DNA of 64,000 bases from Cytidiella melzeri (Eukaryota; Basidiomycota; Agaricomycetes; Polyporales; Irpicaceae): the NCBI GenBank assembly GCA_022592445.1, contig JABYQR010000066.1, forward strand, positions 62,001-126,000, read 5' to 3'. A program made the translations under genes and the position numbers. This document shows, one piece after another, positions 3,867-28,006 of the stretch; the stretch's first letter is position 1, and every line of letters begins with the position of its first letter. The notes below the pieces were generated by a model that saw only the letters and a list, made by a program, of their open reading frames with translations, was not told the DNA's origin and searched no databases.

Positions 3867-4072
3867 CACTGAGGAAGGCACACTGTGTTGACTGGAGAGC
3901 TCATGGATCTAGACAGGCCTACATCATCATGCCATTCACAGTATGTTTGGTGAATTGCTACAAGCTAATTAAAATAATTGAAACTGGCTGCTGGTAGTTT
4001 TTACTCTACATGGAAATACCACATTATCTTGCTGCTTGTCTCTTACTATGTGCTCCTTAGCCAAAATGGAGG
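3867..4072. other. no gene seen
   Basis: Short spacer after the truncated copia relic; nothing recognisable. Confidence 0.4.
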
Positions 4073-4745
4073 TGGTCATAGATGGCCTGACTAGCCCTTT
4101 TTTTGCATCTTACCTTCGATTTTACCTTTGCATCCCAATTGCAACCCCCTTTGCAAACTCATTGCACATCTATTAAGTGCCCAAATCACATTGCTTAGAC
4201 ACTCTACATGGTGATGTTACTTGCTGCTATGTCACACTGGCACGTGACTCAGCTTATGTAACACCACATGGCTACAACCACATGGCTCAGCCCATCGCTA
4301 GGGTTTAACATCATAGATACTCTTCACATGGCCTCCTATTGTTCTTTCAATATCTGTTCTTCTGATGGTTAGAGTGTTCTCACGAGTGTGAGACCTGAGT
4401 ACAAAGACTGGTCTCCTGTTAGTTAGGTTTTCTCACAAGTAGAGGTCTTGGCGGAGTCCAAACAATAGATATTGTTTTCCTTCAGGTAGTTCTTTTGTTC
4501 TTTCTTCACATGGCTTCTTGCAAAGCCTGCCCTGAACATTGTCTGTGTGCAGGTCCCTGATGTCTATATATTCTGCTGCATGTATGCTCCTAGCCCCCCA
4601 TCTCGATGTCTTGGTCTTTACTGGGCTAGATACCTGAATAAGATTCTTAGTTGGTGAGGGCATTGTGCTACATGCCTGCCACCACCTTGTTGTTGTCTTC
4701 CACATTGTGTCCCTGTTTGTCACGTCCAGTCCTGTCTCTGTGTCA
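4073..4745 (+). repeat. solo LTR-like repeat, family 1
   Basis: This block recurs diverged at 44884-45644 (reverse), 48210-50375 (same strand, split) and 50380-50951 (reverse). Its best copies begin TGTTGTGGATGGCC and end GAGCTCTGTCTCTGTGACA, so the ends are of the TG..CA type expected for LTRs. It contains a CTATATATT box near 4565 that could be a TATA element. The related blocks at 13956-14682 and 23211-23969 share its order of motifs. No clear target duplication flanks this copy. Boundaries are approximate because the 5' end has diverged. Confidence 0.6.
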
Positions 4746-5276
4746 GGCATGTAAGCCTGGAATGGCCCGGGATGGTTCAACTTTCCAGGCTTCCACACAT
4801 TGTGATGGGGGAGGTCCAGGTGAAATTAAATACCTGATGATGAGGACTGTGAACATCATTCACTTTTTGGACGTGACTAGCAAGGTAGACCTTACCTGAG
4901 TTACTTGTTGACGTAGTTAGTCAAAATTATCTTGTTTCTCGTTTCTTGTTCTGCAAAAGTCAAACTGTGACCATGTCACAAATCCTCGTTCACAACATCA
5001 CTCCGCCCACTGTGACCGTAAAAACGAGCAATTTTAGGATTGAAACCAAAAAATAACATCATGAAATAACACCATGATAATTTCCGGGTTCACATCCTCA
5101 AATGATTATACATACATCAAGTATTACTTCCTGTACTGCCAAGACAATACAACGTTGCTTAGTGTAGTCATGATAAACGAGTGTGTTCAATCCTTCCAAC
5201 TCCACCACAACCTTCACCATAACCTTAATGAATTGTTTCTTCGTTGCGTCGTCGAACGAGGCAGGACATCAAGTCC
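4746..5276. other. intergenic, no gene seen
   Basis: Spacer between the LTR-like repeat and the 3' end of the secreted-protein gene. No ORF with family resemblance. Confidence 0.4.
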
Positions 5277-5897
5277 TTAGTCCTTGACCCCAGGTGCCGC
5301 TTCAGCGTTGGGGCCCTGAATTGCCTGAGCGGCCCTGTTGTTGGGGAAGGGATCGCCGAATCCACAGCCGCCGTCACGCTCTTGAGCGATGACAGGGCCT
5401 GCACACTTGCCGCTGTGAAAGCCACAGCAAGCAGACGCGCAGTCCGAGTCGCTCGTGCATTGACCGGTGATGAACTGAGTGCCTCTAGTGATAGAAGTCG
5501 AGGGGGCGCGGGTCGTCAGCTGCGCCGCGTTGTCCGAAGCAGGAATAGTGCTCCGGCCGCTCTTGGGAACTCCAGGAGCAGCTTCTGCGTTGGGGCCCTG
5601 AATCTTCTGTGCGGCGATGTTGTTGGGTGTGGGATCACCGAAACCGCAGCCACCATCACGCTCTTGAGCAATAACAGGGCCTGCACATTTGCCGCTGTGG
5701 AAGCCACAGCAGCCAGAGGCACAATCAAGGTCTGCATGGCAAACGCCAGTGATGAACTGGGTTCCAGGGCTGACACGAGGGATATAGGTAGCAGTAACGA
5801 CTGAAAAGACAAGAGGTCAAAAACTACACCATGCGTCGATAATGTGAAAGAACCCACGGTTGACGAGGAAGAAAGCGAGGACGATTGAGGACTTCAT
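5277..5897 (-). CDS. secreted cysteine-rich protein with two tandem BAS2-like domains
   Basis: Two exons, 5858-5897 and 5277-5800, joined over a 57-bp GT..AG intron, give 187 residues. The start MKSSIVLAFFLV is a signal peptide that continues after the splice. Two copies of one domain of about 60 residues follow, each opening with GTQFITG and carrying six cysteines (C..DCAS.CC..KC..GGCGFGD), and each ending PNAEAAPGV. A threonine/serine-rich linker of about 30 residues separates them. Single-domain proteins of this kind are common small secreted proteins in fungi and resemble biotrophy-associated secreted protein 2. Export and disulfide bonding are inferred; the biochemical function is unknown. 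The 12 cysteines suggest six disulfides. A TATA box lies upstream on the same strand. Confidence 0.82.
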
Positions 5898-6803
5898 AAT
5901 GAGAGGTGCAGGATTGTGCGGTTGTAGAGCGAGAGTCGTTGGAAAAGACGGAAAGTTGCTCAGCAACAAAGAATGTCGTTATTAGGAAGAATTTGCAGGG
6001 ACACGACCAAGCGTGAAAGAGAGAAGGGTCAAGGAGGAGATGACCATCCAAGCTCCATACCTCATGAGCTTTTATACTCATACAGGCGGGACGCCAAAGA
6101 GTAGTTCCAAATGAGATGACAATGTACAAGGCGGCTTGGTTGTTTCTCGTTTTGTGTTAGCAGCATCGCGCTGTCAAAAGATGAAACGGTAACCATACCT
6201 CTCCATCAACACTCGATGCCCGCCGGTGTGGGTTTAGATATGTACATACTGAGTGCTGTCGGGAGACACTAGCTGTTGCCTTGAAGTAACGTATACCCCA
6301 TTGCAGTGACATGCTCCTCCACCTTCGGAAGTTTCACGGTTTGCCGAGCTTGATTACCGCTTGCTAGTCGTCTGTGCACCTGCCTGATTTTGTGTGTTAT
6401 ACTTGTCCAGTCATTATGCATCATCATCATGAGGGCATTTTGTTCATCACAACGACTGCCAGGACTAAGTAGCTGTCGCGAATACCTCAGATTCACATGA
6501 TGGCTTGTAGACGTAGGTTCAGCCATGCTGTGTGTAAGCACGCGGCTGTTCAGCATAAGCAGGACTGTCTTACCTGCCTCTTGAAGCAGTGGGTCCTAGT
6601 AATGGAGATAGATGATCATGCTAGTAAGAAGGACCTCGGAATACGCTCGCAACACCAGTTGGTGCCTGCCGAAAACTGTCAACAATAACCTGGCAGAAAA
6701 CGTCATCTATATGGTAGCCAAATCTTCGACAAAATGATGTTATACAGTGAGGTTCCTAGCGAGAGAGGATATCTCCACTATGCGCACTCCTTGAGATCAT
6801 CCT
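5898..6803. other. intergenic: promoter side of the secreted-protein gene and 3' flank of MET3
   Basis: No ORF here has a recognisable family. Short open frames on both strands (for example 6269-6556 minus) have no supporting splice structure and look accidental. Confidence 0.5.
6069..6076 (-). promoter_or_regulatory. TATA box of the secreted-protein gene
   Basis: TATAAAAG on the minus strand, about 170 bp upstream of the ATG at 5897. It is well placed for a fungal core promoter with a 5' leader. Confidence 0.5.
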
Positions 6804-8989
<2,186 letters not shown>

Positions 8990-9787
8990 GTCTTCGTGTT
9001 CGTCGTTCGTTAGGGCAAAGAGAAGTGGTGAACGAGAGTTTGCGAGCGTGCGGCATCTCTTCAGCTATATTATATCGAGTGAGTAGTGATGATGAAGGTA
9101 TCACGCAATCGCAACGCTCGTCGCTTACTGGCACAACTCGTCACCCGCAAAAGATGCCTTGTTGCATTGGCGAGCTACTCGAGTGTCTCCTCGAACGAGT
9201 CTTGAGCGAGTGCTTGCAGCGACTGTCAGGGGGAAAGACTGTGGTGCTCTGAGACACTTTACCAACAAGTCTGGAAGGAGTCATTGACAGGCTGACCATG
9301 TTGATCAAGATGTGTCGGCGACGTTGGAGCACAACCACAAGCTCTCAGCTGAACTGTCTCTGCTGAGGACTACGAACTTGAACCTCATGCCTGCGTGGAT
9401 GAATGACTGGTACAGAAAGACATGCCCTGTGGATTACGGCACTCAAAGCGTCGTGTTGGACCGAATCTTACGCACAGCTGTGAGGGCAGAAGATCATGAA
9501 TATTCCGTGTGACAACAATTGTTAAACTCGATGGGTGCATACTAGTCAATCTGTAGTCCTCAAGAACTGTCGTCGCGAGTCTCAGAGTCGTCGAAGTCGA
9601 GAACGTAATTTTATGCACACCTTGTGCCGGAAAATCAAGCATTGATTATGTCAGCGGCTTGTTCCGCCTGCACTGCGCACAGCACATCTGGTCTTCCTCG
9701 TCGTCCTCAACGTCCTCCATCCACGCTTGCTCGCCGACCCCTTCGGTCTCTCCCTGCATGCCTTCCCACTCTTAGTATACGCCCGTC
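8990..9787. promoter_or_regulatory. divergent intergenic region of MET3 and the membrane-protein gene
   Basis: About 800 bp separate the two divergent starts. On the minus strand a TATA-like TATAATATA stretch (about 9066-9075) lies roughly 80 bp upstream of the MET3 ATG. No family-supported ORF lies in the spacer. No sulfur-control site could be pinned down with confidence. Confidence 0.4.
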
Positions 9788-11035
9788 ATGATTATACTAG
9801 ACGAAGAAGACGACCAGCGGCCGAAACTCGAACCTCCTGTGCCCCTTCATGTTCGGACGAACAGACCTTCAACGCCTACACCATCGTTACCCGATTACGA
9901 GACGTCGCAGGAGCAGCTTAAGCTTAACCTGAGGAACAAGAAATTCATATCGAGGCGACTGAAGTGGACGATATGGGGACTTGGAGCGTACTTTGTGGTT
10001 ACAATTGCCATCGGTGTACCCCTAATTATTTTCGTGAGTCTCACTCTGCCAGCGTTTTGTCGCAGCGGACCTAATTCCTACAAGTCTCGACATAAAGGCA
10101 GTCATAAATCATCGACTGTGTCTTGGTATGGCGTCAACAGTAGCGAACCCATACTCCCAACTGTCTTCAAATTGGCGGCGTACCCTGTGGATGTTGATGA
10201 TGCCTCTGTATGCGATGCTTGGGAGGATGTAGATGTTTACAACGGTTCATTCTACAGTGCTCAGTCAGTTTCTCTCATGTATCATGAAGCTACCAACGCC
10301 ACTTACGCCCACGAGGATCACAGATTGCAATACTCTGTCCCTATCTCTACCACGGTGTTCGTTCAGTCCAACATGACACAATATGTCAACAACAGCCCTC
10401 ATCCAATAAGCGGATCCTTACACGTCGGTACAAACTCAGAACCCAGCTATTCACAGGCAACCTTCAACGTGGCCATGTCATATACCAGCGTAGACATCAG
10501 GGAGCAGACGAAAGTCTGTATAGTTAAGTTGAATATTTCCCATGCAGATGGGTTATACATCTACGTATGTCCTTAATGGTTTTGACTATTATCATGACTG
10601 AGCGTATTACCAAGGTGCCGTCTGGGCTGAAGGACTCTGACAGCCTGTCATTTGATATCACGGTTGACTTGCCTCACTTTAATGGCACTGGCAGCCCCGT
10701 TTACATCCCAAACTTTATGACATCCCTTCCCTACTTCTCTCAAACTATGGACTGTCCGAATACGGAAGTCACGTTTGGGAGTGTCGCACTTGGAGGGTAT
10801 CAGCAAGACATGCATGTCAAAGTACGTTCAACAATACTGAGCTTGATGATCTTGTTCACAAAATGCCTCCATACAGGCAGTAGAAGCAGAAGCCGTGTTA
10901 CTGAGAAGTCCTTTTGGGAATACGTCGAGCATTTACTCTGCTCATTCGAATACGGCAAAGGACTCGTAAGCAATGCCCCTTCCCTCATAATCTCGCTCGC
11001 CCCATTTGACAACCGTTCTCTATGTTAGGACGTGA
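9788..11035 (+). CDS. single-pass membrane protein, basidiomycete unknown family
   Basis: Four exons (9788-10564, 10615-10821, 10877-10965, 11029-11035) give 359 residues. A cytoplasmic, proline-rich N-terminus of about 60 residues is followed by a hydrophobic helix (IWGLGAYFVVTIAIGVPLII, about residues 62-83). The rest is a presumably lumenal or extracellular beta-rich domain with several N-glycosylation sites (NGS, NAT, NMT). The pattern DGLYIYVP followed by DSLSFDITVDLP recurs in many Agaricomycete proteins of unknown function. The introns after residues 259 and 328 restore this pattern and support the model. The final 7-bp exon is the weakest part, so the C-terminus may be longer or truncated. 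No function is known. Confidence 0.65.
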
Positions 11036-11989
11036 CCTGAAGTTCGGATGGTTGGTCTTCGAGATATGTCGACAGGTATGCAACCTGGTTGCATCATGCT
11101 ACGTCGCTGACCAGGTGCACAGCCTTCCCTCCCTAAGTCGTACCACAACCAGGAGCCGTTGCTTCGGTCGTGTGTCTCAATCGTACACCGCCTATTTACT
11201 CGTCTATCTAAGTGATAGACGCGAAACTTGGCTCGGTGTGGGTTGCTTACTTTCCAGCCCCACGAGACTGACCCGGAGGAGCCGGTGCCATGTCGTACAG
11301 CAGCACAGAACTGTTACCTGCTGCTTTGCTGGGGACTGAAGAGCACGCGGCAAGCCGAGTCGAGGACTATTTGGATCGCGTACAACAGTGCTGTTGCTTA
11401 AGCAGGTTCGGCATGAACACAGTCAATCCTTCACATTTATACCGCAGACTTGCTATTAAATCATCGCTATCGTGCCAGTAGAGTAGCTACAGTTAATATT
11501 CACGCGCATGTACACTACATATCACTGACGTCGACGTTTCAGTTGCATTACTATGTTATTCTTATTTTGTGCATGTAGATCGACATCGCCTGGACGTGAA
11601 TCTTGCGCTACAACTCTACGAGCGACCTCCGCCTGTCCTCGAAGAAAAGTTGTGGCGTCTGCACGAAGTCCCCAGAGAAGAAATGACTGATCTGCGGAGG
11701 CCGGTGACTGGGGAGCAGGAGCGTCGGAGTCTGCTGTTGTGACGACGAAGCATTGGCCGAATTTAAGCCCTGCATCACCCGGACAGCAATTTGAGGAGGC
11801 TTTGGTGATAATCAGGTTGAGGATGGTTGGAAAGGTCATAGGAGAGAAACAATCCTGTACGGTTTTCGCGCCAGCTGGACTCTTCAGAGCGTACTAGCTT
11901 ACGTTGCATTGATCATCTTCACCAATGAAACATAGTGCCGAGACAAAGGCCGGTGTCAACGTAAGGAACACAAGTGGGAGAGACCGCGC
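11036..11989. other. no supported gene
   Basis: Mixed-composition spacer. A minus-strand open frame of 105 codons (11522-11839) has no recognisable domain, signal peptide or splice structure, and I do not call it. Confidence 0.4.
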
Positions 11990-12166
11990 TCAAATAACAC
12001 TTTCGGTACATTGTCAACTCATGGGACACAGATAGAAGATATATTTTGCTCCCTCCATCGTTTCTGCTACTCGTCATCTAATCTATGCACTTCTCAGCCA
12101 CCCCGTGTCCTTTGCTCTGCACCCCTCATTGCGATACACCCGCCTTTTGCGCCTCTGAACCCTCGT

Positions 12167-12544
12167 CTAGTAATGAGAGGTCGATAAATGTAAGAGTTGC
12201 TTCTTAATTGCTTCGTCCCATTTCTCCTCCTTTGTTTTCGTCGAGGCGGCGCTCTCACTCCCTGTCTTTGCGCTCCCACTCCCTGTCTGCTGCGCGCTCC
12301 CACTCCCTGTCTGCTGCGCGCTCCCACTCCCTGCTGGGACTTGTCCATGAGCGCTCGACTCCGAAGTTTTCGCGCCCATCCGTTTAGTGAGAACTGGATC
12401 AAAATTCAACACGTGCAGATCGGGAAGGTCGGCAGTGCTCCGTCCCTCCAAGCTGTATTCTCTACTGCCGTACGGGGTGGCAGACACAGTCACCATTCCG
12501 GTGACAATGCTGGTGAGCAAGAGGAGAGAGGTCAAGAACTGCAT
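12167..12544 (-). CDS. small secreted protein, repeat-borne
   Basis: Intronless frame of 125 residues. The N-terminus MQFLTSLLLLTSIVTGMVTV is a clear signal peptide ending near SATP. A short polar region follows, then 8-residue repeats GSGSAQQT, and a lysine/glutamate-rich tail ending LHLSTSHY. The gene lies inside a repeated unit, and its paralogue at 19.2 kb has lost its start codon. No catalytic domain is seen, and function is unknown. A long alternating TA tract lies about 200 bp upstream and could be its core promoter. It could be a true effector-like secreted protein or a passenger of the repeat; expression evidence would decide. Confidence 0.55.
   Translation of the reverse strand: MQFLTSLLLLTSIVTGMVTVSATPYGSREYSLEGRSTADLPDLHVLNFDPVLTKRMGAKTSESSAHGQVPAGSGSAQQTGSGSAQQTGSGSAKTGSESAASTKTKEEKWDEAIKKQLLHLSTSHY
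12271..12335. repeat. 24-bp tandem repeat in the small secreted-protein gene
   Basis: Two full and one partial copy of a 24-bp unit (12271-12294, 12295-12318, partial to 12335) encode the octapeptide GSGSAQQT on the minus strand. The paralogue at 19.2 kb lacks the expansion. Confidence 0.8.
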
Positions 12545-12742
12545 AGTGGTAGAATAGGATGGTGAAGAGTGGTTTGAACAGGGTTTGGAAAGATGGCAAG
12601 ATGACTAGCTGCAAGAATTATTTCAGTACAGTGGCTCAAGGCAAGTGCAAACAAACAATGATGCACTCACCGACCAGCGCTGAAGCAATGAAAGTCCTGG
12701 AACAATGTGGTGGTGCTGAGGGAGAAGGATGGTGGAAGAGGG

Positions 12743-12755
12743 TTTATATATATAT
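12743..12755 (-). promoter_or_regulatory. TATA-rich element upstream of the small secreted-protein gene
   Basis: Alternating TATATATATA tract on the minus strand about 200 bp before the ATG at 12544. The same tract is kept in copy 2 near 19806-19816. Confidence 0.4.
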
Positions 12756-13955
12756 TGGTCCATGTGCAGTGCTCATGCAATAATCAGAGAATATACAGTT
12801 TAACAATAGGGAAATTCAGGGTAAATTGCTTTTCAACAATCTAGGGGCTGATTAATTGGCGACCAATCTTGCCCCAATTTTTCTGAATCAACTTGTACAC
12901 TTTTGCAGTGGCTTTGCATTTCAACAACTTAGGGGCTGATCAATTGGCAATCCATCTAGCCATCAATCTTCTCAATCAACTCACTTGAGAGTATCTTGCA
13001 GTTCATGTACAGTACCCAATCAATAATCAGAGAATGTACATTTAGGGATTGGGGAAGTTCAGGATAGATTGCTTTTCAACAAAGTAAAGGCCAATTAAGT
13101 GGCAATTTATCTTGCCACCATTTTTCTGAATTGACTCACCAATCAGATAACAGTTTTAGAGTGGCTTGCTTCTCAACAATTTAGGGGGCAGTGTAAGTGG
13201 TAATTTATCTTGCCATCAATCTTTCCATTCAACTCACCTAGTGTACACTCTGAACACCCCTTTTTCACAGCTCCAATCTTAGGCTGAGTCCTCCAAACAA
13301 GGATAAGTAATTGCCTGTAGTCCCTGGAGAACTTATCTGATACAACCAGGTCACAGCTCAAGTTGCTATGTTGCACAGCATCAAAATTTTTTGGGGTCTT
13401 GTTCTTGGTGTTGTGTCACTTTAATGAATCTCTGCAATCCTGCATCATGCACCCTGTTATTTGCTCATTGCACAGCCAGTCACCCTGAAAGCTTTGTTGA
13501 TGAGAAGTTGTCAAGTCAATGGTGCAAGTTGGTGAACCATACACAAGGTCAGAGGATGGTATAGGCTGTGCAGCTGTTGTCAAGCACAATGACAGACAGA
13601 TAATGAACGATAGAAGAGCTGCTTAAACAAAGTGGATAGACAAATTTCCCAGTGCATGTCCTTCTCAGTTACATATTCACATGATTGGATTGATTACCTA
13701 TGGACCAGTCTAATGCAGTGGTAGCAAAATGGAGAAGCACAAGAGAGGACCAGTAGACATGAAACAATGCCAACATGGTGAGGCATTACAGGAAGAGGGA
13801 CATCAATGCATGTAAATGATGAAACAGTAGAACAATGCAAAACTGGGGTTGAACCCAGAACAGTGGATAGATGAGGTTGGATCTGAGGGAAAAGTGATGA
13901 TCAGAAGACTGAGGATAGAACCAAGGCCATGGTAACTAATTGGGGTCAAGCCTGC

Positions 13956-14682
13956 TGTTGTGGTGAAATTTGAATGGCATGACTACCCCTTTATTTTTGC
14001 ATTTTTTGATCTCTAGTACATAGGGGGTTGCAACCCCTTTTCAACCTCTTGCTATTTTTATCAAGTGCCCATGTACACGGCTTGATTGCTCTACATATGG
14101 TCAGATTGCTCTGCTGCTATATCATGCTGGCATGTAGGCCAGCTTACATGGCAACCATCACGCGTCTCAGCCCAGAGCTAGGACTGTGACCCCACAGCTA
14201 ACTTGGCATACTCCTATTCCTTTGTTCTTTGGCCCTTGTTCTCATTATGGTTAGATCGTACTTAGAAGCATGAAGCCAGAGTACACAGACTGTACTCTTT
14301 ATAGATAGATTAAAGGGCTTGAGATTGCTCCCACAAGCTTGCTACCAGAATACATAGATTCTGCTCTTCATAGATAAAATGAAGGTCTTGGCATTGTCTA
14401 CACAATGGTCATTGTTCTCCTTTAGGCAGGTCCTTGAGAGCATCTTCAAATGACTTCCTGCAAAGTTTGCTATAAAGTGGCCTTACAGTATACGGGTCTC
14501 TATATCTACTGCTACATTCACATGCCTAGCACTCCATCTTGACCCCATGTTCTTTGCTAGGCTAGATTTCTGCACACCATTGATCCTGTGCTTCATGCCA
14601 ACAACCACCTCCTTTTTGTGTTGCACATTCTAACCCTGTTTGTCTTGTTAAGCCCACATCTCTGGGTCAAGTGTAAGTGACA
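13956..14682 (+). repeat. LTR-like block, family 2, in repeat unit copy 1
   Basis: Begins TGTTGTGGTGAAATTTGAATG and ends AAGTGTAAGTGACA (TG..CA). It is collinear with 23211-23969 in copy 2 and more distantly related to family-1 LTR blocks. A reversed remnant of the same end follows directly (about 14685-14800), so nested insertion or a fold-back is likely. Confidence 0.55.
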
Positions 14683-14824
14683 CAGAGACAGGAACTTGGC
14701 ACAACAAACAGAGATCCAAAGCCAAAAATGACAAGGAGGTGGTAGTTGGTGTGAAACACAAAATCTTCATCAGCTTTAAGTTTGATGTAGATGTACAGCC
14801 CAGTAAAGGCCTGATCAGTATCAG

Positions 14825-17800
14825 TATTGATACATCCATGATTGTCCACTTTGCCCAAATTCTCAGTTCAATTCCTCTCACTGGTCAATATTCTCTGCAT
14901 CTCAGTGCTGCAAATTCAACGCTTTGACAGCAACCATGGTAAGCATGCAGCTGACTTTGGATTTGAGTCTAAGCAATGTTTTTCAGTAAACTGGCCATAA
15001 CTCATTCAATTTGCTCCAAATGACAAGATCCTAAGACCCAAATGATGGTGCAAGATGGGTGTATGGAATTGGCTATCTTCTCTGTCCATTTGTGTCTATA
15101 TGCTGTCTGTGAAATCCATCAACTGTGTTTTGATTGTAAAAGTGCTTGCATAGCAACTTTCAAAGTGCTTGTAGCAATCTGGGTGCTTCCCATCAGTTGC
15201 ATTGATGGGAGTAACACAAACACTCTAACACTTTGTATTTTCCATTAATTCTTGCGGCATCCAACAATAGTGTTACATGTCACAAGAGCTCAAAGCACTA
15301 GCTTGCACTGGAACAATTCTTCATTTGTCAGAGATTGTAAGAAATTTGTTCCTGGTAATACCCTTGGCAAGTTATCTGGTAATGCATACTTGATGTACAA
15401 AGTGCATTTGCTGTTGGTAAAAACTTCAATCAGCAACTTGAGGTGGGATTTGATCCATCTTCTCTTGTGCTGTGTTTACTCCTGATGCAACAATTGGTTG
15501 CAGTGCTAAATGCAAACTCACTGCTGATGCACATCAGCCAAAAGAAATCAAATGCTTCAAAATACAGGAATTGGAAATGTTCCATCAGAATCAGCTCCCA
15601 AACAACTGCCTCATTCTGATCAGAACAGCCACTGGCTGTGTACCCTTGCCCAGAAAGCAACTAATGTTTGTGGCACTTTGTGGCACTTTGTGGAACAATC
15701 AGTTGCTGTGTCTACTGCTGAAGCAGCAAGAGAAATTATGTGCCCCAAAAATATAGGAGTTGGGAATGTTTGGTTGAACTCAACCCCTAAAGAAGCTACA
15801 TGTGTCTTGCTGATGTATGAACTGCCTTGTTTCCATTTGAACTGCCACAAGCAGTGTTCCGATGGTTACTTGTGCTCAGAGAGCAAGTTACAACTCCTGA
15901 AGAATTAAGAAGAATTGTTGCAGTGTGCCCCAGCACATTAATGCTTTTCAGGTGTGACCGTCTTGTCCCACAAAGTGTGGGAGTTTTGATGGGAGAATAC
16001 ACACAGTAACAGTCTAAATTTCAATGCAATGAACAAAGATGATGGCATCACACTGGCTTTGTTATCAGCCCTTGATAACTTTGTATCAGATCACTTTTGC
16101 AATAAAAGTGCACTTTCTGATTTTTACAGACTACATATGGGAGCAAATTTGTACATATCATACACAATTGGATAGCCCTATCTTGCGGCAACATCCTGGT
16201 ACAAAAACTGGGCCAATTGAAGTGAAACTGAGCAAGTTGTGGGCAGTATACTGACAAAAAGCCACTTAGACTCAGATTCATACTCCACTCTTGCTGGCCC
16301 AAGAAGTGCAATTCTGGTCAGGTACATGTAGAGCAATTTACAGGCATTGCTTGGTCTCTGAAAAAGGAATACAATTAGGGAACATGCCACAAACATTGTT
16401 GGCTCTGACCAGGAACTACCTGTACTTTGGAAGCCAACAAAACATTTTCAGCCCCTACATTTTTCAACATTGGAAATTGGCTGTTGCATCAGTGGTGAGT
16501 ACTGCATCTGATTGTTTCAAAAAGTCCCATAACCACTAGTTTCTCTCTATGCAAGGGTCACAATCAGAACACAGCCTGTGGCAGTCCCAATGGGGGTGAG
16601 GCAGCTCAGACATCAACAGGACACATGTATCATGTTCTTGGAGTTGATCTAATGAGACACCAAGCTCTTCATTTATGAAGCAAGTGAATTTTTGGCATCA
16701 GCAGTGAACACTGTACAAGATTAATGATAAGCTATATGAAGCCCCTTGCTACTATTGGTCACTACCTTTGTCAATGTATGGCTGCTTTTCCAGCAGCTAA
16801 ACTGATCAATTACAGCACAGTCACTTTGTCTCAAATCAAGTCCTGCAACAATCACTTGTGGTACTCATCCAAACTCACTGCTGGTGCCAAAGAGTACCTT
16901 CTTCAAGAATGAAGGGCTCGAGGGTGTCTCATTAGATCAGCTCCAATAACATGATTCATGTCTGAACTGCCTCATCCCCATTGGACTGCTACAGGCTGTG
17001 TTCTGATTGTAGCTTTGGCTTAGAGAGCAACAAATGTGTGTGGGACTTTGTGGAACAATGAAATGCAGTGCTTGCTGTTGATGCAACCACATCCTGTTGA
17101 TGTGACCACATCCTGTTGATGTCTGTACTGCCTCACCTCCATTGGAACTGCCACAGGCTTTGTTCTGATTGTAACTCCTGCATAGAGAGCAACTAGTGGT
17201 TGTGAAACTTTGTGAAACAATCAGATGCAGTACTCACTGCTGATGCAACAGCAAATTTCCATTGTCCAAGAATGTAGGGGTTGAGAATGTTTTGTTAGCT
17301 TCCAAAGTACTGGTAGTTCTTGCCCAGCGCCAATAATGCTTGTGGCAAGTGCCCTGATTTTATTCCTTGTTTAGAGAGAGCAAGCAATGTCTGTAGATTG
17401 CTGTACATGTACCTGACCAGAATTTCACATCTTGGGCCAGCAAGAGTGGAGTATGAAACTGAGTCTGAGTGACCTTTTTCAGTAGACTGGCCACAACTTG
17501 CTCAATCTCACTTTGATTGACCAGTTTTTTGTACCAGGATGTTGCCACAAGATAGGGCTATCCAGTTGTGTATGATATGTACAGATTTGTTTCCGTGTGC
17601 AGTCTGTAAAAAATCAAAAAGTGCATTTTGATTGCAAAAGTGATCTGATACAAAGTTATAAAGGGCTGATAAGAAAGACAGTGTAATGCCATCACCTGTA
17701 TTCATTGCCATGAAATTGAAACTGTTACTGTCTGTATACTCCCATCAAATTCCCACACTTTTGGGGCAAAAGCATTACGTCTGGAAAAGCATCAATGTGC

Positions 17801-18640
17801 TGGAGCACAATGGCACAATTCTTCTTTGTTCTCCAGGAATTGTAATTCATCTTCATTCTTCAGAAATTGTAACAACCATGATTGTCCACTTTGCCCAAGT
17901 TCTTGGTTCTATTCCTATCACTGGTGAATATTCTCCACATCTAAGTGCTGCAAATTCAGGGCTTTGGAAGCAACCATGGTAAGCATGCAGCTGACTTTGG
18001 ATCTGAGTCTGAGCAATGTTTTTCAGTAAACTCACCATAACTCATTATTTTTGCTCTAAATGACAAGATCCTAGAACTGACACAATGGCACAAGATAGGT
18101 ACACAGAATTGCTTATGTTCTATCCCATTTGTGTTCATATGCTTTCTTTGAAATCCAGTAACTGTGTTTGATTGAATTGCCCATATAGCAAGTTCCAAAG
18201 TGCTAGTGACAAAGTTGGTGCTTTTCCATCAATTGCATTGATGGTAGTAACACAAATACTGTAACATTTTGTATTTTCAATGAATTTTTGTGGCATCAAA
18301 CAATAGTGTTACATGTCACAAGAGCTCAAAGCACTAGCTTGTACTGGAATAATTTTTCATTTTTCAGGTACTGTAAGAAATTTGCTCCTGGTAATAACCT
18401 TGGCAAGCCATCTAGCAATGCATACTTACTTTAGAAAGCGCATTTGCTATTGGTAAAAACTTCAACAAGCAACTTGAGGTGGGATTGTATTCATCTTTCA
18501 TGAATTCTGTGCTGTGTTTACCTTTGACACAACAATAGCTTGCAGTGCTTGATTAAACTCACTGCTGATGCACATTAGCCAAGCAAAATTACGTGCTTTG
18601 AATGGGAAGTGGAAATGTTCCATCAGAATCAACTCCCAAA
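14825..18640. repeat. folded non-coding repeat cluster
   Basis: Segment 14825-15600 recurs directly at about 17868-18640, including the string CAACCATGATTGTCCACTTT. Segment 15885-16480 recurs in reverse at about 17270-17850. The 15885-16870 part also recurs at 48545-49500. The whole cluster reads forward, reversed, then forward again. No ORF of family interest is present and CpG dinucleotides are almost absent, which fits an old, mutated repeat. The element class is unknown. Confidence 0.65.
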
Positions 18641-19089
18641 ACATGTTTTATGTGCACCTGTGCTGAGCTTTACCCCTTTTTAGCACATTTTTCTCCCGTT
18701 CTGTTTGTGCCATATCATCCCAAAACCTTGTGATATGCTCTGCTTACAGTGCTTATATCCTCTTTGTTCTCATTTCCTACAATTACCACTGTATGTTTTG
18801 CTCACATGTTATCTTTTTGTTCACCTACTCATTGTTTCCATCTCTCTACCCCCTCCCCCCAAAATGTCCACCGTCTATGTCTCATTGTTATTGATTGCCC
18901 AATTTACTGCCCCCACCCTGCCCCTCCCCCCTTCTGCTCTATGGTGCTCCTCACCTATGTCTCACCATCATTGATGGCCCCTCACGACCTGCATCTCTGC
19001 AAAATTCCTTTTGCTGTGCATTGCCTTTTATATCCAAAACAATCCTCTCTCTGTCCTCAACGTAATGGTATAACTGTCTCTTTGCTAGT
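18641..19089. other. no gene seen
   Basis: Pyrimidine-rich spacer between the folded repeat and copy 2 of the large unit. Open frames here reflect composition only. Confidence 0.4.
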
Positions 19090-19185
19090 AGCTAAAGAAT
19101 ACACTTTTGATACATTTTAAGTCATGGGATACAGATAGAACATATATTCTGCTGTTTCCATTGTTTCTGCTACTCATCATCTGAT

Positions 19186-19612
19186 CTATGCACTTCTCAG
19201 CCATCCCGTATCCTTCGATCTGTGCCCACCCGCTCTTTGCTTAACACCCGCCTCTGCGTTGGCTGGCTTGTTTCTGGTCAAGAGCTGATCTATACGTGCA
19301 ATGTTGTCATCTACTGTCTGCTGTAATCTTTCAAGCTTCGCTGCCAATGAGGCAGGGCTTGGATTCTGTGCACTCCTACTCTCTGTCTTTTCACTCTCAC
19401 TCTCTTCTTGGACTTGTCCCTGAGCGCTTGATGCCCAAGTTTTCTCTCCCCCCCTGTTTGGTGAGAACTGAATCAAACACATGCAGATTGGGAAGGTTGG
19501 CAGCGCTTTGTCTCTCCAAGCTGTATTCTTTACTGCTGTATGGGGTGGCAGACACAGACACCATTCCTGTGACAATGCTGGTGAGCAAGAGGAGAGAGGT
19601 CAAGAAGTGGTA
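19186..19612 (-). pseudogene. decayed paralogue of the small secreted-protein gene
   Basis: The frame FLTSLLLLTSIVTGMVSVSA matches the gene at 12.2 kb, but the base run carrying its ATG is deleted, and a frameshift near 19440 moves the reading to another phase (ASSAQGQVQEESESEKTESR). The octapeptide repeat is absent. An upstream ATG at 19675 reads into the signal region but would still hit the frameshift. It is therefore most likely non-functional. Confidence 0.7.
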
Positions 19613-20652
19613 GGATAGGATGGTGAAGAGTGGTTTGAACAGGGTTTGGAAAGATGGCAAGATGACTAGCTGCAAGAATTATTTCAGTACAGTGGCCCAA
19701 GGCAAGTGCAAAACAAACAATGATGCACTCACCGACCAGCGCTGAAGCAATGAAAGTCCTGGAACAATGTAGTGGTGCTGAGGGAGAAGGGTGGTGGAAG
19801 AGGCTTTATATATATATGGGTCCATGTGCAGTGCTCATGCAATAATCAGAGAATATACAGTTTGACAATAGGGAAATTCAGGGTAAATTGCTTTTCAACA
19901 ATCTAGGGGCTGATTAATTGGCAACCAATCTTGCCACAATGTTTCTGAATCAACTCGTTTATCAGAGTACAATTTTGCAGTGGCTTGCATTTCAACAACT
20001 TAGGGGCTGATCAATTGGCAATTTATCTAGCCATCAATCTTTCCAATCAACTCACTTGAGAGTACAAGGGTAGTGGCAAGAGACTTCATATATCTTGCAG
20101 TTTATGTACAGTACTCATCCAATAATTAGAGAATGTACAGATTGGGGAAGTTCAGGATAGATTGCTTTTCAACAATTCAAAGGCCAATTAAGTGGCAATT
20201 TATCTTGCCACCATTTTTTGGAATTGACTCACCAATCAGAAAACAGTTTTAGAGTGGCTTGCTTCTCAGCAATTTAGGGGCAGTGTAAGTGGTAATTCAT
20301 CTTGCCATCAATCTTTCCATTCAACTCACCTAGTGTACACTCTGAACACCTCTTTTGCACAGCTCTCCAATTTTAGGCTGAGTCCTCCAAACAAGGATAA
20401 GTAATTTGCCTGTAGTCCTGCAGAACTTGACTGATACAACCAGGTCACAGCTCAAGTTGCTATGTTGCATAGCATCACAATTTTGTGGGGTCTTGTTCTT
20501 GGTATTGTGTCACTTTAATGAATCTCTGCAACCCTGCATCATACACCCTGTTATGTGCTCATTGCACAGCCAGTCACCCTGAAAGCTTTGTTGATGAGAA
20601 GTTGTTTGATTTCAAATCAATGGTGTAAGTTGGTGAATCATACACAAGGTCA

Positions 20653-22790
20653 CACCTATCCGTCCCGCTATGAAAGCCCCATCAGAGGGCATCAAACGAC
20701 CCTGCGCCGAGCCATATCTGAGTCAGATCTGCGAGTTTTCCTCACCCGTCTATAAACCGTTCAAGAATTAACTCAAATATCTTAGATCATCAGTCCCTGC
20801 CGAGCCATCGTGCTCCCGCCCTCGCGCTCACCATCATCTCCCATCAATCACGCGCGGATTATCTCCGGCAATGTCCCCGCTCCCGCGCTCGCTGTCTACA
20901 ACGATGAGCGCTGTATAGTATAGGTCCATGGCTTCCCCTTTGATTCACTTAGTTCTTTTTGGCTATATAGGGTAATCAAGTGTGTAGAATACGATTATGA
21001 AGTCCGATTTAATAATTACTTGATAGATCTCTCACTGTAGCCAGATCTGTAGTGGCCACAGGGGTGTCTGGCCCTCTGTATATGCATGCACTATTCCTAA
21101 CGTCTAGTGGCTTTGTTTAATTAATTTTGGATACATATGCGAAGAATTGGTGAAGAAACCATGTTATTTGAGACAAAGGAGAAGGTGCTATGCATTGAAC
21201 ATGGTGGAGAGTAGAGATGGGTGGCCACACATGGGATCATCTTGTACAATAAATCGCACACTTAATTTAAAGTGTTTTCCCATGTATATAGACGTAAAAT
21301 AATGTGCCCGATTGGCGCAATAGCGGTTGGGCCAATTGTAGTATACCTGTTCCCCTCCTGCCTCCCAAAAGGTACAAAGCGCCCTCCCACTGTGTAACCA
21401 TTGAGCGCGGGCTTGGCGCACCTATCCAGTCGTGTAGAGCACCCTAAAAAGCAATAGTACAAGGTAACACATCCCCCCCGCCGCTAATTCCGACGCTTCT
21501 AAGATGCTACAAAGGTGAGAAAAGGCGAAATTGACATGCTCCTAAGTACATATCTGCCTGTGGAGGTCCCTACAGGCTGGGGGACTGTAGAATTCACTCA
21601 TAATAATGTTCAACATACATGATTCAGTATGTACAATATTTTATTTGAAGGGGATTGAAGCCCTACAGCCCCAGATACATGGAAATGACCCGAGAGCAAA
21701 GCTGGGTTCAAGAAGCTTTGTGCCGGGTTCTTGCACATCCTGGTCTTCCTGACTGCTTTTTCATGTATCTGGGGCTGTAGGGCTTCAATCCCCTTCAAAT
21801 AAAATATTGTACATACTGAATCATGTATGTTGAACATTATTATGAGTGAATTCTACAGTCCCCCAGCCTGTAGGGACCTCCACAGGCAGATATGTACTTA
21901 GGAGCATGTCAATTTCGCCTTTTCTCACCTTTGTAGCATCTTAGAAGCGTCGGAATTAGCGGCGGGGGGGATGTGTTACCTTGTACTATTGCTTTTTAGG
22001 GTGCTCTACACGACTGGATAGGTGCGCCAAGCCCGCGCTCAATGGTTACACAGTGGGAGGGCGCTTTGTACCTTTTGGGAGGCAGGAGGGGAACAGGTAT
22101 ACTACAATTGGCCCAACCGCTATTGCGCCAATCGGGCACATTATTTTACGTCTATATACATGGGAAAACACTTTAAATTAAGTGTGCGATTTATTGTACA
22201 AGATGATCCCATGTGTGGCCACCCATCTCTACTCTCCACCATGTTCAATGCATAGCACCTTCTCCTTTGTCTCAAATAACATGGTTTCTTCACCAATTCT
22301 TCGCATATGTATCCAAAATTAATTAAACAAAGCCACTAGACGTTAGGAATAGTGCATGCATATACAGAGGGCCAGACACCCCTGTGGCCACTACAGATCT
22401 GGCTACAGTGAGAGATCTATCAAGTAATTATTAAATCGGACTTCATAATCGTATTCTACACACTTGATTACCCTATATAGCCAAAAAGAACTAAGTGAAT
22501 CAAAGGGGAAGCCATGGACCTATACTATACAGCGCTCATCGTTGTAGACAGCGAGCGCGGGAGCGGGGACATTGCCGGAGATAATCCGCGCGTGATTGAT
22601 GGGAGATGATGGTGAGCGCGAGGGCGGGAGCACGATGGCTCGGCAGGGACTGATGATCTAAGATATTTGAGTTAATTCTTGAACGGTTTATAGACGGGTG
22701 AGGAAAACTCGCAGATCTGACTCAGATATGGCTCGGCGCAGGGTCGTTTGATGCCCTCTGATGGGGCTTTCATAGCGGGACGGATAGGTG
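20653..22790. mobile_element. 2,138-bp palindromic (fold-back, long-TIR) element
   Basis: Two inverted arms of 1,029 bp (20653-21681 and 21762-22790) flank an 80-bp unique spacer. The arms are symmetric without indels wherever I compared them, and ORFs on opposite strands translate identically. The ends are CACCTATCCGTCC and its complement. The element is bounded by a 7-bp direct repeat AAGGTCA (20646-20652 and 22791-22797), and the paralogous unit keeps one AAGGTCA at 13545-13551 with no insertion. This is transposition-like insertion into an older repeat. No transposase is encoded, so it would be non-autonomous. The superfamily is unresolved: 7-bp duplications are unusual, and P-like or Dada-like mechanisms are only candidates. 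Confidence 0.88.
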
Positions 22791-23210
22791 AAGGTCAGAG
22801 GATGGTATAGGCTGTGCAGCTGTTGTCAAGCATCAATGACAGCCAGATAATGAATGATAGGAGAGCTGTTTAAACAAAGTGGATAGAGAAATTTTCCAGT
22901 ATATGTCTTTCTCAGTTACATATTCACATGATTGAACTGATTACCTATGGACCAGTCTAATGCAGTGGTAGCAAAATGGAGAAGCACAAGAGAGAACCAG
23001 AAGACATGAAACAATGCCAACATGGTGAGGCATCACAGGAACAGGGACATCAATGCATGTAAATGATGAAACAGTAGAACAATGCAAAACTGGGGTTGAA
23101 CCCAGAGCAGTGGATAGATGAGGTTGGATCTCGAGAAGCAGTGAAAGAGGATGCAAAAGACTGAGGATAGAACCGAGGCCATGGTAACTAATTGGGGTCA
23201 AGCCTGGAGT

Positions 23211-23969
23211 TGTTGTGAAATCTGAATGGCATGACTACCCCTTGAGCTTTGCATTTTTTTTTTATATCTAGTACATAGGGAGTTGCAACCAGGTTGCAAC
23301 CCCTTTTCAACCTCTTGCTATTTTTATTAAGTGCCCATGTAGACGGCTTGGTTGATCTACATATGGTCAGATTACTCTGCTGCTATATCATGCTGGCATG
23401 TAGGCCAGCTTACATGGCAACCATCACATGTCTCAGCCCAGAGCCAGGATTGTGACCTCATAGCTAACCTTGGCAGACTCCTATTCTTTTGTTCTGTGGC
23501 CCTTGTTCTCATTATGGTTAGATGGTACTTAGAAGCATGAAACTTGAATACACAGACTGTACTTTTTATAGATAGATTAAATGGCTTGGGATTGCTTCCA
23601 CAAGCTTGCTACCAGAATACATAGATTGTGCTCTTCATAGATAGATTGAAGGTCTGGGCATAGTCTACACAATGGTCATTGTTCTCTTTTAGGCAGGTCC
23701 TTGAGAGCATCTTCAAATGACTTCTTGTAAAGTTTGCTATAAAGTGGCCTTACAGTATACAGGTCTCTGAAGTCTGTATCTACTGCTACATGTGCATGCC
23801 TAGTACTCCATCTTGACCCCTTGTTCTCTACTAGGCTAGATTTCTGCACACCATTTATTCCTGGTAATAGTCTTGTGCTTTATGCCAACAACCACCTCAT
23901 TTTTGTTTTGCACGTTGTAACTCTGTTTGTCTTGTTATGCCCACATCTCTGGCTCAAGAGTAAGTGCCA
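23211..23969 (+). repeat. LTR-like block, family 2, in repeat unit copy 2
   Basis: Counterpart of 13956-14682: begins TGTTGTGAAATCTGAATGG and ends AAGAGTAAGTGCCA. Diverged by substitutions and small indels. Confidence 0.5.
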
Positions 23970-24306
23970 AAGAGACAGGAGCTTGGCACAACGTAAAGAC
24001 ATCCAAAGTCTAAAATGACAAGGAGGTGGTAGTTGGTGTGAAACACAAAATCTTCATCAGCTGTAAGCTTTATGTACATGTACAGCAGTAAAGGCCCAAT
24101 CAGTATTGATACAACCATGATTGTCCAGTTTGCCCAAGTTCTCAGTGCAATTCCTCTCACTGGTCAATATTCTCTGCATCTAAGTGTTGCCATTTAAGTG
24201 CTTTGACAGCAACCATGGTAAGCATGCATCTGACTTTGTATTTGAGTATGAGCAATGTTTTTCAGGAAACTGGCCATAACTCATTGATTTTGCTCCAAAT
24301 GACAAG

Positions 24307-25044
24307 TGTTACGAACGGTCTTCACACCCTATTATTTTTCTTTACTTCTTCAATTACCTTGATAACCAGTTATCTTCTTTACAATTACCTCTACGATCCA
24401 ACTCGTCTTGCCTCCATCATTCCCTGATCCACATTGTCTCTGTTCAACACGGACTATTATGTTATCAGTTGCCTTCTGGTGTCCATTCAAACCTCGCACC
24501 TAACTCCAATTGGTTACCATTGCCTTGGTTCAACCCTTGGCCTTTCCATACCTCCGTTACCACTCCATTGGGTCCAACCCCATCTATCCCCTGTTTCAGG
24601 TCCAACCCCGTCTATCCCCTGTTTCGGATAAAACTCCGTTATCCCCTGTTTCGGGTTCAACCCCTTCTCTATTGATCTCTGCCTCATGTTTCACCTTTCT
24701 ATTGTTCCTTTTGTCTGCACCTTGACAGTCTTTTCTCTCATTGGCTTTCCAGAGTAGTGGCTGTTCTCTGTGTATTGTTCTTCCTTTCTGTTCCTCCAAT
24801 TCGCTACCACTACCTCGGACTGGTCCAAAAGTAGTTAGGTAAACATGTATAAATAGCCACTAGACTGGGGCTAGAACCTCAGTCTATCCACTTCGTATCA
24901 ATATTCCTTCTATCAAATCATCATCTGTCTGCCACTGTGCTTGACAGCAACCGCGCGGCATAGACCATCATCAGACCTTGAGTGTAGCTACACCAAGGGG
25001 TTCTGACCTGACAACTTGTCCCTTGACGATAGTCGGTCTTAACA
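24307..25044 (+). mobile_element. solo LTR, 738 bp, with target-site duplication
   Basis: Starts TGTTACGAACGG and ends GTCTTAACA. It is flanked by the 5-bp direct repeat ACAAG (24302-24306 and 25045-25049). The paralogous unit reads straight through this point at 15023-15027, which proves the insertion. It contains a TATAAATAG box near 24850 and short internal repeats of the type TATCCCCTGTTTC at about 24585-24655. The strand is given from the TATA box. The parental element is probably Ty3/gypsy, by LTR length only. Confidence 0.88.
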
Positions 25045-26290: not shown

Positions 26291-26781
26291 TGTTTGAAAG
26301 TTACGATTGTAGGGGATGACTTGGAAGGTCAACTAACTCTGGGAGTAAGTGTCTTATCATTTCTCTGCTCTCTAGGAGTGGTATATATACATGTCTGTAA
26401 CTAGATTTATAATGCTACAGTAATATCATATGAGTAAGGATTGGTAATGCACAGTCCTGCTTGCTAATACTACTGAATAGAGAATGTAAGTGATGACTGA
26501 GCATCCTACATAACTGAATGATCCTGACTGAGCCTTTAGTGAGCTCAATACATTTGGTATATGAAATATGAGTCATGGAGAAGCCTCATGGGACTTCTGC
26601 TATTCAGTCATGGAAACTACTGGAACACGATGCAATAAGGTGCAAGTATTGCATCATGTGTGGCCATAATGATGATGGAATTACATGCTAGGTACTATCT
26701 GATCTTATCTATCTACTTATCTAATCTACATTGTCCATAGATCTGATCCCCAATGATCAGCAATACAATCTCGCTTTGACA
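26291..26781 (+). mobile_element. solo LTR, family 3, 491 bp
   Basis: Begins TGTTTGAAAGTTACGA and ends TCTCGCTTTGACA, flanked by GGTAA on both sides (26286-26290 and 26782-26786). It interrupts copia copy B between KQCY and LDLKETCDYW. It is an inverted copy of the LTR at 27484-28006. It contains a GTATATATACATG box near 26380. Confidence 0.92.
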
Positions 26782-27483
26782 GGTAACACTGTTTAGCTGC
26801 AGCAAATTGTTCCTTAGCAGGGTCAGATAGATAATGTGCAAGTTGACCGGTGCAGTAAGCAACATCTGGTTGAGTACAGTCAGTAACATAGCGTAAGACA
26901 CCAACTAGAGACATGTAATATTTGTAATTGCCAGCGTCCTGACGCGGTTCTGTCGAGGCACGGGGTGCTAAGTTGTGCTCTTGTATCATGGGTGTACAGC
27001 AAGAGTGTTCATGGTCAAAGTTATATTGCTTAAGGATATTTTGTTTATAATTCTTTTGACAAAGTTTGATAGTGCCTGAGGTTTTATTGTAGGATATCTC
27101 TATGCCAAGCATCCAGTGGATAGAGCCACCGTTAGTCACTTCAACATGTTGCCTCAGAGCAATCTCACATTGTTCAGCAACGACAGAAGTGATAGTACAA
27201 GGAGTGATGTCGTCAACATGAACAGCAAGGAGTAATATGAGTTTGTTTCCTCGGTAGAGAAAGAAGACAGCGTTATCATAGTCAGAACACTTTAGTCCAA
27301 GTTGAAAGAGTATGTCGCATAGTACCTTATACCAACAACAACCGGCTTGTTTAAGACCGTAGATAGTTTTCCGAAGTTTCAGTACCCAGCCATTAGGCAG
27401 ATTAGGCAGTAAGTCACCAGGTGGTGGACGAAGGTATAGATCTTTGTCTTTGTTAATGTTACCGTAGAGGTATGCAGACTTTA

Positions 27484-28006
27484 TGTCAAAGCGAGATTGT
27501 ATTGTTGATTATCGGACATCAGATCTATGGACAATGTAGATTAGATATGTAGATAGATAAGATCAGATAGTACATAGCATGTGATTCCACCATCCTTATG
27601 GTCACACAAGTTGTGATACTTGCACCTTATGGCATTGTGTTCCAGTAGTTTCCATGACTGAATAGCAGAAGTCCCATGAGGCTTCTGCATGACTCATATT
27701 TTATATACCAAATGTATTGAGCTTACTAAAGGCTCAGTCAGTACCATTCAGTTATGTAGGATGCTCAGTCATCGCTTACATGCTCTATTCAGTAGTATTA
27801 GCAAGCAGGACTGTGCATTACCAATCCTTACTTACAGGATTACTGATCCTTACCAATCCTTACTCATATGACATTACTGTAGCATTAGTAATCTAGTTAC
27901 AGACATGTATATATACCGCTCCTAGAGAGCAGAGAAATGATAAGACACTTACTCCCAGAGTTAGTTGACTCTCCAAGTCATCCCCTACACTCGTAACTTT
28001 CAAACA
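27484..28006 (-). mobile_element. solo LTR, family 3, 523 bp, opposite orientation
   Basis: Ends are TG..CA, flanked by CTTTA (27479-27483 and 28007-28011). It interrupts the reverse transcriptase between QLDIK and SAYLYGN. Its sequence is the diverged reverse complement of 26291-26781, about 30 bp longer owing to small indels near 27830-27880. Confidence 0.92.

Follow-up and report, generated by a model that had tools for sequence, protein, structure and literature searches.

The window analysed here is a 64-kb stretch of the genome of Cytidiella melzeri (Polyporales, Irpicaceae), a fungus that lives on wood. It contains a 2,138-bp palindrome at positions 20653–22790. A repeat search divides the palindrome into a left arm (20653–21685, plus strand) and a right arm, its reverse complement (21758–22790, minus strand), each 1,033 nt long, and a 72-nt spacer (21686–21757) that is identical in all 11 intact copies of the genome. 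Direct comparison of the two arms shows a single mismatch, at arm position 1030, with positions 1–1,029 identical; the description of the palindrome in an earlier, sequence-only reading, with 1,029-bp arms and an 80-bp spacer, is exact, as the first mismatch in the arm self-comparison falls at 1,030. Inverted repeats make up 2,066 of the 2,138 bp, which is a foldback-type composition in the descriptive sense. Scans of the 64-kb window returned no Rfam match at gathering score and no tRNA.

The palindrome is bracketed by a 7-bp target-site duplication, AAGGTCA, at 20646–20652 and 22791–22797. A paralogous, unoccupied site in the window has a single AAGGTCA (13545–13551), and the paralogue aligns through the insertion point once one AAGGTCA copy is left out; away from that point, the alignment contains a small number of substitutions and one 7-nt gap. 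The flanks and the alignment bear out what had been claimed of this site, namely AAGGTCA at both palindrome ends, a single AAGGTCA with no insertion at the 13.5-kb paralogue and, from the target duplication and the empty paralogous site together, a real insertion event.

The empty site and the palindrome lie in paralogous blocks (12649–15081 and 19711–24360, respectively) about 7–9.3 kb apart, with up to 96% identity. Two further inverted pairs, of 357 nt (92% complementary) and 165 nt (94%), are found at 26291–28006 of the window; 702 nt separate their inner arms, and the pairs lie around a frame at 26726–27508 on the minus strand that by eye resembles that of a retroelement.

Copies of the palindrome in the genome

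The genome searched comprises 49.7 Mb in 731 contigs, and the counts from the DNA searches are lower bounds. With one arm as the query, at least 68 matches were obtained (77 candidates, 40 scored), at least 22 of them full-length with 98–100% identity; these are the arms of 11 intact palindromes. Together with 29 further stretches, the intact palindromes form the locus set used below, and the other genomic copies with matching termini that the sequence-only reading had proposed to search for are thus represented by 11 intact copies as well as degraded ones.

Direct repeats, read by eye, are present at the ends of all 11 intact copies and are different in each. Their length is 7 bp in nine copies, 8 bp in one (L017) and 6 bp in one (L011), which, apart from the 6 bp of L011, is in keeping with the 7–8 bp duplications of KDZ elements. 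The palindrome has a multi-copy insertion history with mostly 7-bp duplications. Since a near-perfect 1-kb inverted repeat occurs 11 times at different targets, it is not a product of chance. Missed sequencing adapters were rejected as a source, because end duplications at different targets accompany 11 of 11 copies.

KDZ elements with the same ends

A pattern of the 20 terminal bases, with up to two mismatches allowed, gave 38 hits in the genome, against one for the reversed-pattern control. The 11 intact copies account for 22 of these hits with their ends; among the remaining 16 are ends of KDZ elements at the loci C275, C357 and C114. The autonomous partner with the same ends that the sequence-only reading had proposed to look for is accordingly found as an 11-kb KDZ-transposase element making 7-bp duplications. 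The only Pfam match above cut-off in this partner is KDZ (1.2e-69). The KDZ profile, PF18758, has 97 matches in the C. melzeri genome and none in 14 control genomes, and it is found in P0002 and P0003, proteins of full-length relatives. A KDZ protein search identified at least 106 proteins among 7,996 scored candidates, mostly named from other mushroom-forming fungi.

The element at C357 (122514–133704) is built, in order, of an end repeat, a half with the KDZ gene, a central arm, a 79-nt spacer, a second central arm, a half with a second gene and an end repeat. Its ends are CACCTATC and GATAGGTG, and its target duplication is AAAGCAC. Its two central arms are not kept identical: their alignment shows 24 mismatches in 854 positions and a further 16 gap columns. 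The element at C114 (59583–70604) has the same plan with lower identity, its central repeat being about 73% alike to that of C275; no target duplication was found at its ends, so a 7-bp duplication is present in two of the three KDZ loci examined (C357 and C275). For the protein of the second half, P0001, no Pfam family was found, and a homologue search with residues 230–400 of a rough second-half translation retrieved only the genome's own protein (one of 173 candidates).

The ends that the window palindrome has in common with these elements are its terminal inverted repeats of 118 bp (20653–20770, plus strand; 22673–22790, minus strand), which are 81% identical to the KDZ ends, the first 16 bases being identical to the C275 terminus. 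Homology to the KDZ central inverted repeat is collinear with that of the ends and amounts to 65–70%. An outer part (20822–21009, plus strand; arm positions 170–357) aligns with 4488–4675 of the C275 element at 69%, and an inner part (21269–21685, plus strand; arm positions 617–1033) aligns with 4935–5350 at 65%, a match also recovered from the KDZ side; arm positions 119–169 and 358–616 gave no alignment to the C275 arm. The start of the central homology and the outer edge of the KDZ central repeat are no more than about 7 bp apart. Judged from these alignments, the window palindrome corresponds to a KDZ end plus the central repeat, without either gene half.

An identity of 81% over 118 bp at the ends and of only 65–70% in the centre might also be read as chance or convergence in a foldback or Mutator-like family that is not related to KDZ. 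This is highly improbable in view of the collinear homology of end and centre, the equal duplication length, the identical first 16 bases and the preserved boundary of the central repeat. The palindrome has its ends and centre in common with KDZ elements that make 7-bp duplications. The suggestion of an undescribed non-autonomous fold-back family accordingly stands in part: the insertion is non-autonomous and fold-back-like, but it is not without known kin, since KDZ elements share its ends and its 7-bp duplications.

The C275 locus

C275 has two copies of the KDZ half, inverted relative to each other. Without interruption, the arms run for 4,334 nt at 100% complementarity around a 93-nt spacer, and they reach about 5,336 nt when the outer part is counted in. 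What sets these longer arms apart is one single-base gap, two mismatches bordering the spacer and a 6-nt gap where a retrotransposon has inserted; the 6-nt gap is probably the retrotransposon's target duplication. The insertion (12568–20279; L079/L080) is about 7.7 kb long, occupies the right arm only and is called a retrotransposon because of its 759-bp end repeats, which are 99.87% identical. Two member sequences exist in the protein database for the C275 transposase, which fits one per arm.

The C275 palindrome extends over 2806–21288, and position 21288 is the last base of an end repeat. Beyond it lie the outer edge of a central repeat, a half with the second gene (21327–24900, 98% identical to that of C357) and an end repeat whose last base is 25965. 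The possibility that the palindrome at this locus is an autonomous element standing on its own was considered and rejected, since the 7-bp duplication CGATATT brackets 2806–25965 and not 2806–21288. This bracketing and the layout past 21288 suggest that a two-gene element acquired a second, inverted copy of its KDZ half. The gain could have come about by run-off repair synthesis at a transposase-cut end and subsequent joining; by one-ended transposition into the central repeat; or by a nested insertion and a subsequent deletion between direct repeats.

Symmetric variation between the arms

Variants were counted in both arms of every intact copy (11 copies, 22 arms) before position 1,030, leaving out two gap columns and the spacer-edge column. 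Of the 49 positions that vary, 36 are symmetric throughout the 11 copies and 13 are asymmetric in at least one copy. Alleles private to one copy occur on both arms in 26 cases and on one arm in six; when alleles also present in aligned degraded copies are subtracted, 15 symmetric and two one-arm private alleles are left. Summed over the copies, the difference between the arms of a copy is 19, whereas random arm pairing gave 121.7 on average and never less than 55; none of 20,000 pairings gave 19 or less. Private variants are present on both arms of the same copy, and one locus, C275, has a half on both sides.

The 36 positions that vary between copies and are matched within them point to arm-to-arm copying. 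Of the two possibilities offered in the sequence-only reading, a very recent origin or continuing arm-to-arm correction, the latter gains support from the private variants found on both arms of one copy. Five of the 13 asymmetric positions are within the last 20 before 1,030, adjoining the spacer, where copying between the arms is expected to be least effective. Nearest-arm comparison among the intact copies, carried out for the first arm only, showed that in six of the 11 (L010, L012, L014, L015, L016 and L017) the first arm has a counterpart in another copy that is at least as similar to it as its own partner. This is explained by close relatives among the copies, yet it speaks against strict within-copy matching. 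Overall, the variants support the view that the arms of the palindrome copies evolve in concert.

In the first 161 arm positions (20653–20813 and the matching right end), there are no symmetric variants among the 11 copies and two one-arm variants. This variant-poor part may be a transposase-binding sequence under selection.

Near-identical arms are hard to resolve, and an assembler or polishing step might have given both arms one consensus. Such an artefact is very unlikely: asymmetric variants remain in several copies, end duplications are present in 11 of 11, and no N occurs in the 361,924 bases examined (overlapping loci counted repeatedly). The retrotransposon in one C275 arm only indicates that the arms were told apart. 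Moreover, according to the available text of PMC2775673, Galileo has the same within-copy pattern in another organism.

Degraded copies and the carrier element

Among the 29 further stretches, 12 two-armed ones were compared arm against arm, 11 one-armed ones were aligned and six were left out (L029, which repeats L028, and L041, L042, L046, L047 and L048). In all seven two-armed degraded copies with at least 400 comparable positions (L022, L023, L024, L026, L027, L038 and L045), the arms are 0–0.64% apart, while the nearest other copy is 0.47–6.1% distant. With fewer than 400 positions, arm divergence is 0 in L032, 3.18% in L031, 3.39% in L044, 5.58% in L036 and 8.16% in L035. In L045, the centre appears to have been lost together with the spacer, and there is extra left-arm sequence; its arms differ at 2 of 410 positions. 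L028 and L029, from two contigs, have the same one-armed copy between flanking sequences that are identical over 2,000 bases on the left and 438 on the right, and represent either a segmental duplicate or a second haplotype.

Several degraded copies are inside a different element, with the ends GAGCTACTAG and TTTGTAATATATAG. Of 12 loci scanned for this carrier, five have both of its ends, all five with a 7-bp duplication; in L038, the ends are slightly different and the repeat is shifted by two bases. The carrier ends are 1.4–2.3 kb apart, and the palindrome is a passenger in L022, L023, L024, L032 and L038.

These copies bear on the possibility that transposition is the only occasion on which the arms are renewed, each insertion being rebuilt from one arm, for example by hairpin or gap-repair synthesis, with no correction while resident. 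It is a sub-case of the explanation preferred below and does not exclude it. The independent insertions, each with its own set of symmetric variants, agree with such renewal, as do the drifted arms (3.18–8.16%) of four of the five degraded copies with fewer than 400 positions, truncated copies being probably immobile; in these short copies, arm length and immobility are confounded. Against it, L022, L024 and L038 are symmetric (0/851, 0/850 and 5/787 arm mismatches, respectively) despite having lost their ends and lying inside another element. Any renewal is therefore not tied to the palindrome's own ends, and matching persists where these no longer bound the mobile unit. The carriers of these three copies have, however, also transposed. 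As the exclusive cause of arm identity, it is possible but doubtful.

Comparison with known systems

Duplications of 8–11 bp are typical of Mutator-like elements (MULEs). Filing the palindrome with MULEs was rejected because of the transposase and the duplication length (7 bp in nine of the 11 copies, 6 bp and 8 bp in one each). A filing with Galileo and the P superfamily was likewise rejected, since the partner transposase is KDZ and there is no P-type transposase. Drosophila FB elements have arms composed of tandem repeats, unlike the window palindrome, for which no tandem array is listed within 20653–22790. As in the foldback types, including FB and, in the available part of its description, Tetris (PMC4079207), long inverted repeats constitute most of the element.

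A 7-bp duplication had been taken not to fit the common superfamilies. This is contradicted by the accessible parts of two reports, on Kyakuja of the KDZ group (PMC12730594) and on Galileo of the P superfamily (PMC2775673). As far as the former describes them, two Laccaria families of Kyakuja have 7-bp duplications and CA..TG ends without terminal inverted repeats, Zisupton and a Dileera family have 8-bp duplications compared with the 7 bp of Kyakuja, and the elements studied carry a TET/JBP gene. The C. melzeri palindrome resembles Kyakuja in its CACC..GGTG ends and in the 7-bp duplications of 9/11 copies and 2/3 KDZ loci, and its full-length relatives, like fungal KDZ elements, encode a PF18758 transposase. 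Unlike the Laccaria Kyakuja elements as portrayed in that part of the report, the C. melzeri elements have inverted ends of at least 118 bp as well as a long inverted repeat in the centre; the window copy, moreover, is a gene-free palindrome. No TET/JBP Pfam match was found in P0001 or in the five second-half frames scanned, which extend up to the last part of the C357 second half. Because the absence of end repeats described for the Laccaria Kyakuja families does not apply to them, the C. melzeri elements are filed as KDZ-related and not as Kyakuja; a Kyakuja lineage label is uncertain.

Galileo is a Drosophila element of the P superfamily with 7-bp duplications; its inverted repeats, in the portion of PMC2775673 at hand, are more than 99% identical within two copies and about 7% apart between them. 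According to the accessible sections of a 2013 paper (PMC3573991), one end repeat may be repaired from the other, extending the inverted repeats inward; the longest end repeats reach 1.26 kb, and the copies with the longest repeats have no transposase frame. The C. melzeri elements have another transposase, belong to another kingdom and show near-total palindromy; the C275 arms, at about 5.3 kb with the transposase in each, also depart from Galileo as set out in those sections. Within-copy matching of end repeats is already known from Galileo, and the C. melzeri case is a variant on it. Bacterial insertion sequences offer a further parallel, in that inversions by end-repeat recombination are accompanied by conversion that makes the two ends of a copy identical; in contrast to the C. 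melzeri palindrome, as far as the consulted part of PMC3004938 extends, these have an inverted transposase gene and are not palindromic. Palindromic KDZ elements were not encountered in the titles and abstract openings surveyed in the open-licence literature, and the string 'palindrom' is absent from the available portions of two mushroom-genome papers (PMC8290104 and PMC7473861).

Origin of the palindrome and significance

Taken together, the palindrome is very probably a non-autonomous element moved by KDZ, consisting of the end and the central repeat with the gene halves missing, whose arms are kept alike by arm-to-arm copying. As suggested by the common ends, a KDZ-type transposase would mobilise it in trans. 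Repair or replication would copy one arm onto the other, so that a change in one arm would soon be present on both; a hairpin, a cruciform, or inverted-repeat recombination with invasion of the other arm could provide the route. The identical break-points of the gene-half deletion on both arms may also have arisen through such copying. Certain observations count against this explanation: identity is only 81% across the 118 bp of the end repeats and 65–70% in the centre, C114 lacks a duplication, and the C357 central arms are unlike at 24 of 854 positions.

A broader and rather unlikely scenario is that the KDZ central inverted repeat acts as a built-in repair template, by which two-gene elements would repeatedly turn into palindromes whose descendants have identical arms, giving rise to fold-back families. 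C275 would then be such a conversion caught in the act, with copying ending at the transposase-cut end.

To our knowledge, the origin of fold-back transposons and the cause of their arm identity are not settled. One genome here contains two-gene KDZ elements with a central inverted repeat (C357 and C114), the half-duplication at C275 and a multi-copy palindrome made of ends plus centre. The 36 symmetric positions make the question of arm-to-arm copying accessible to testing, and long-inverted-repeat, palindromic forms would be added to the KDZ group.
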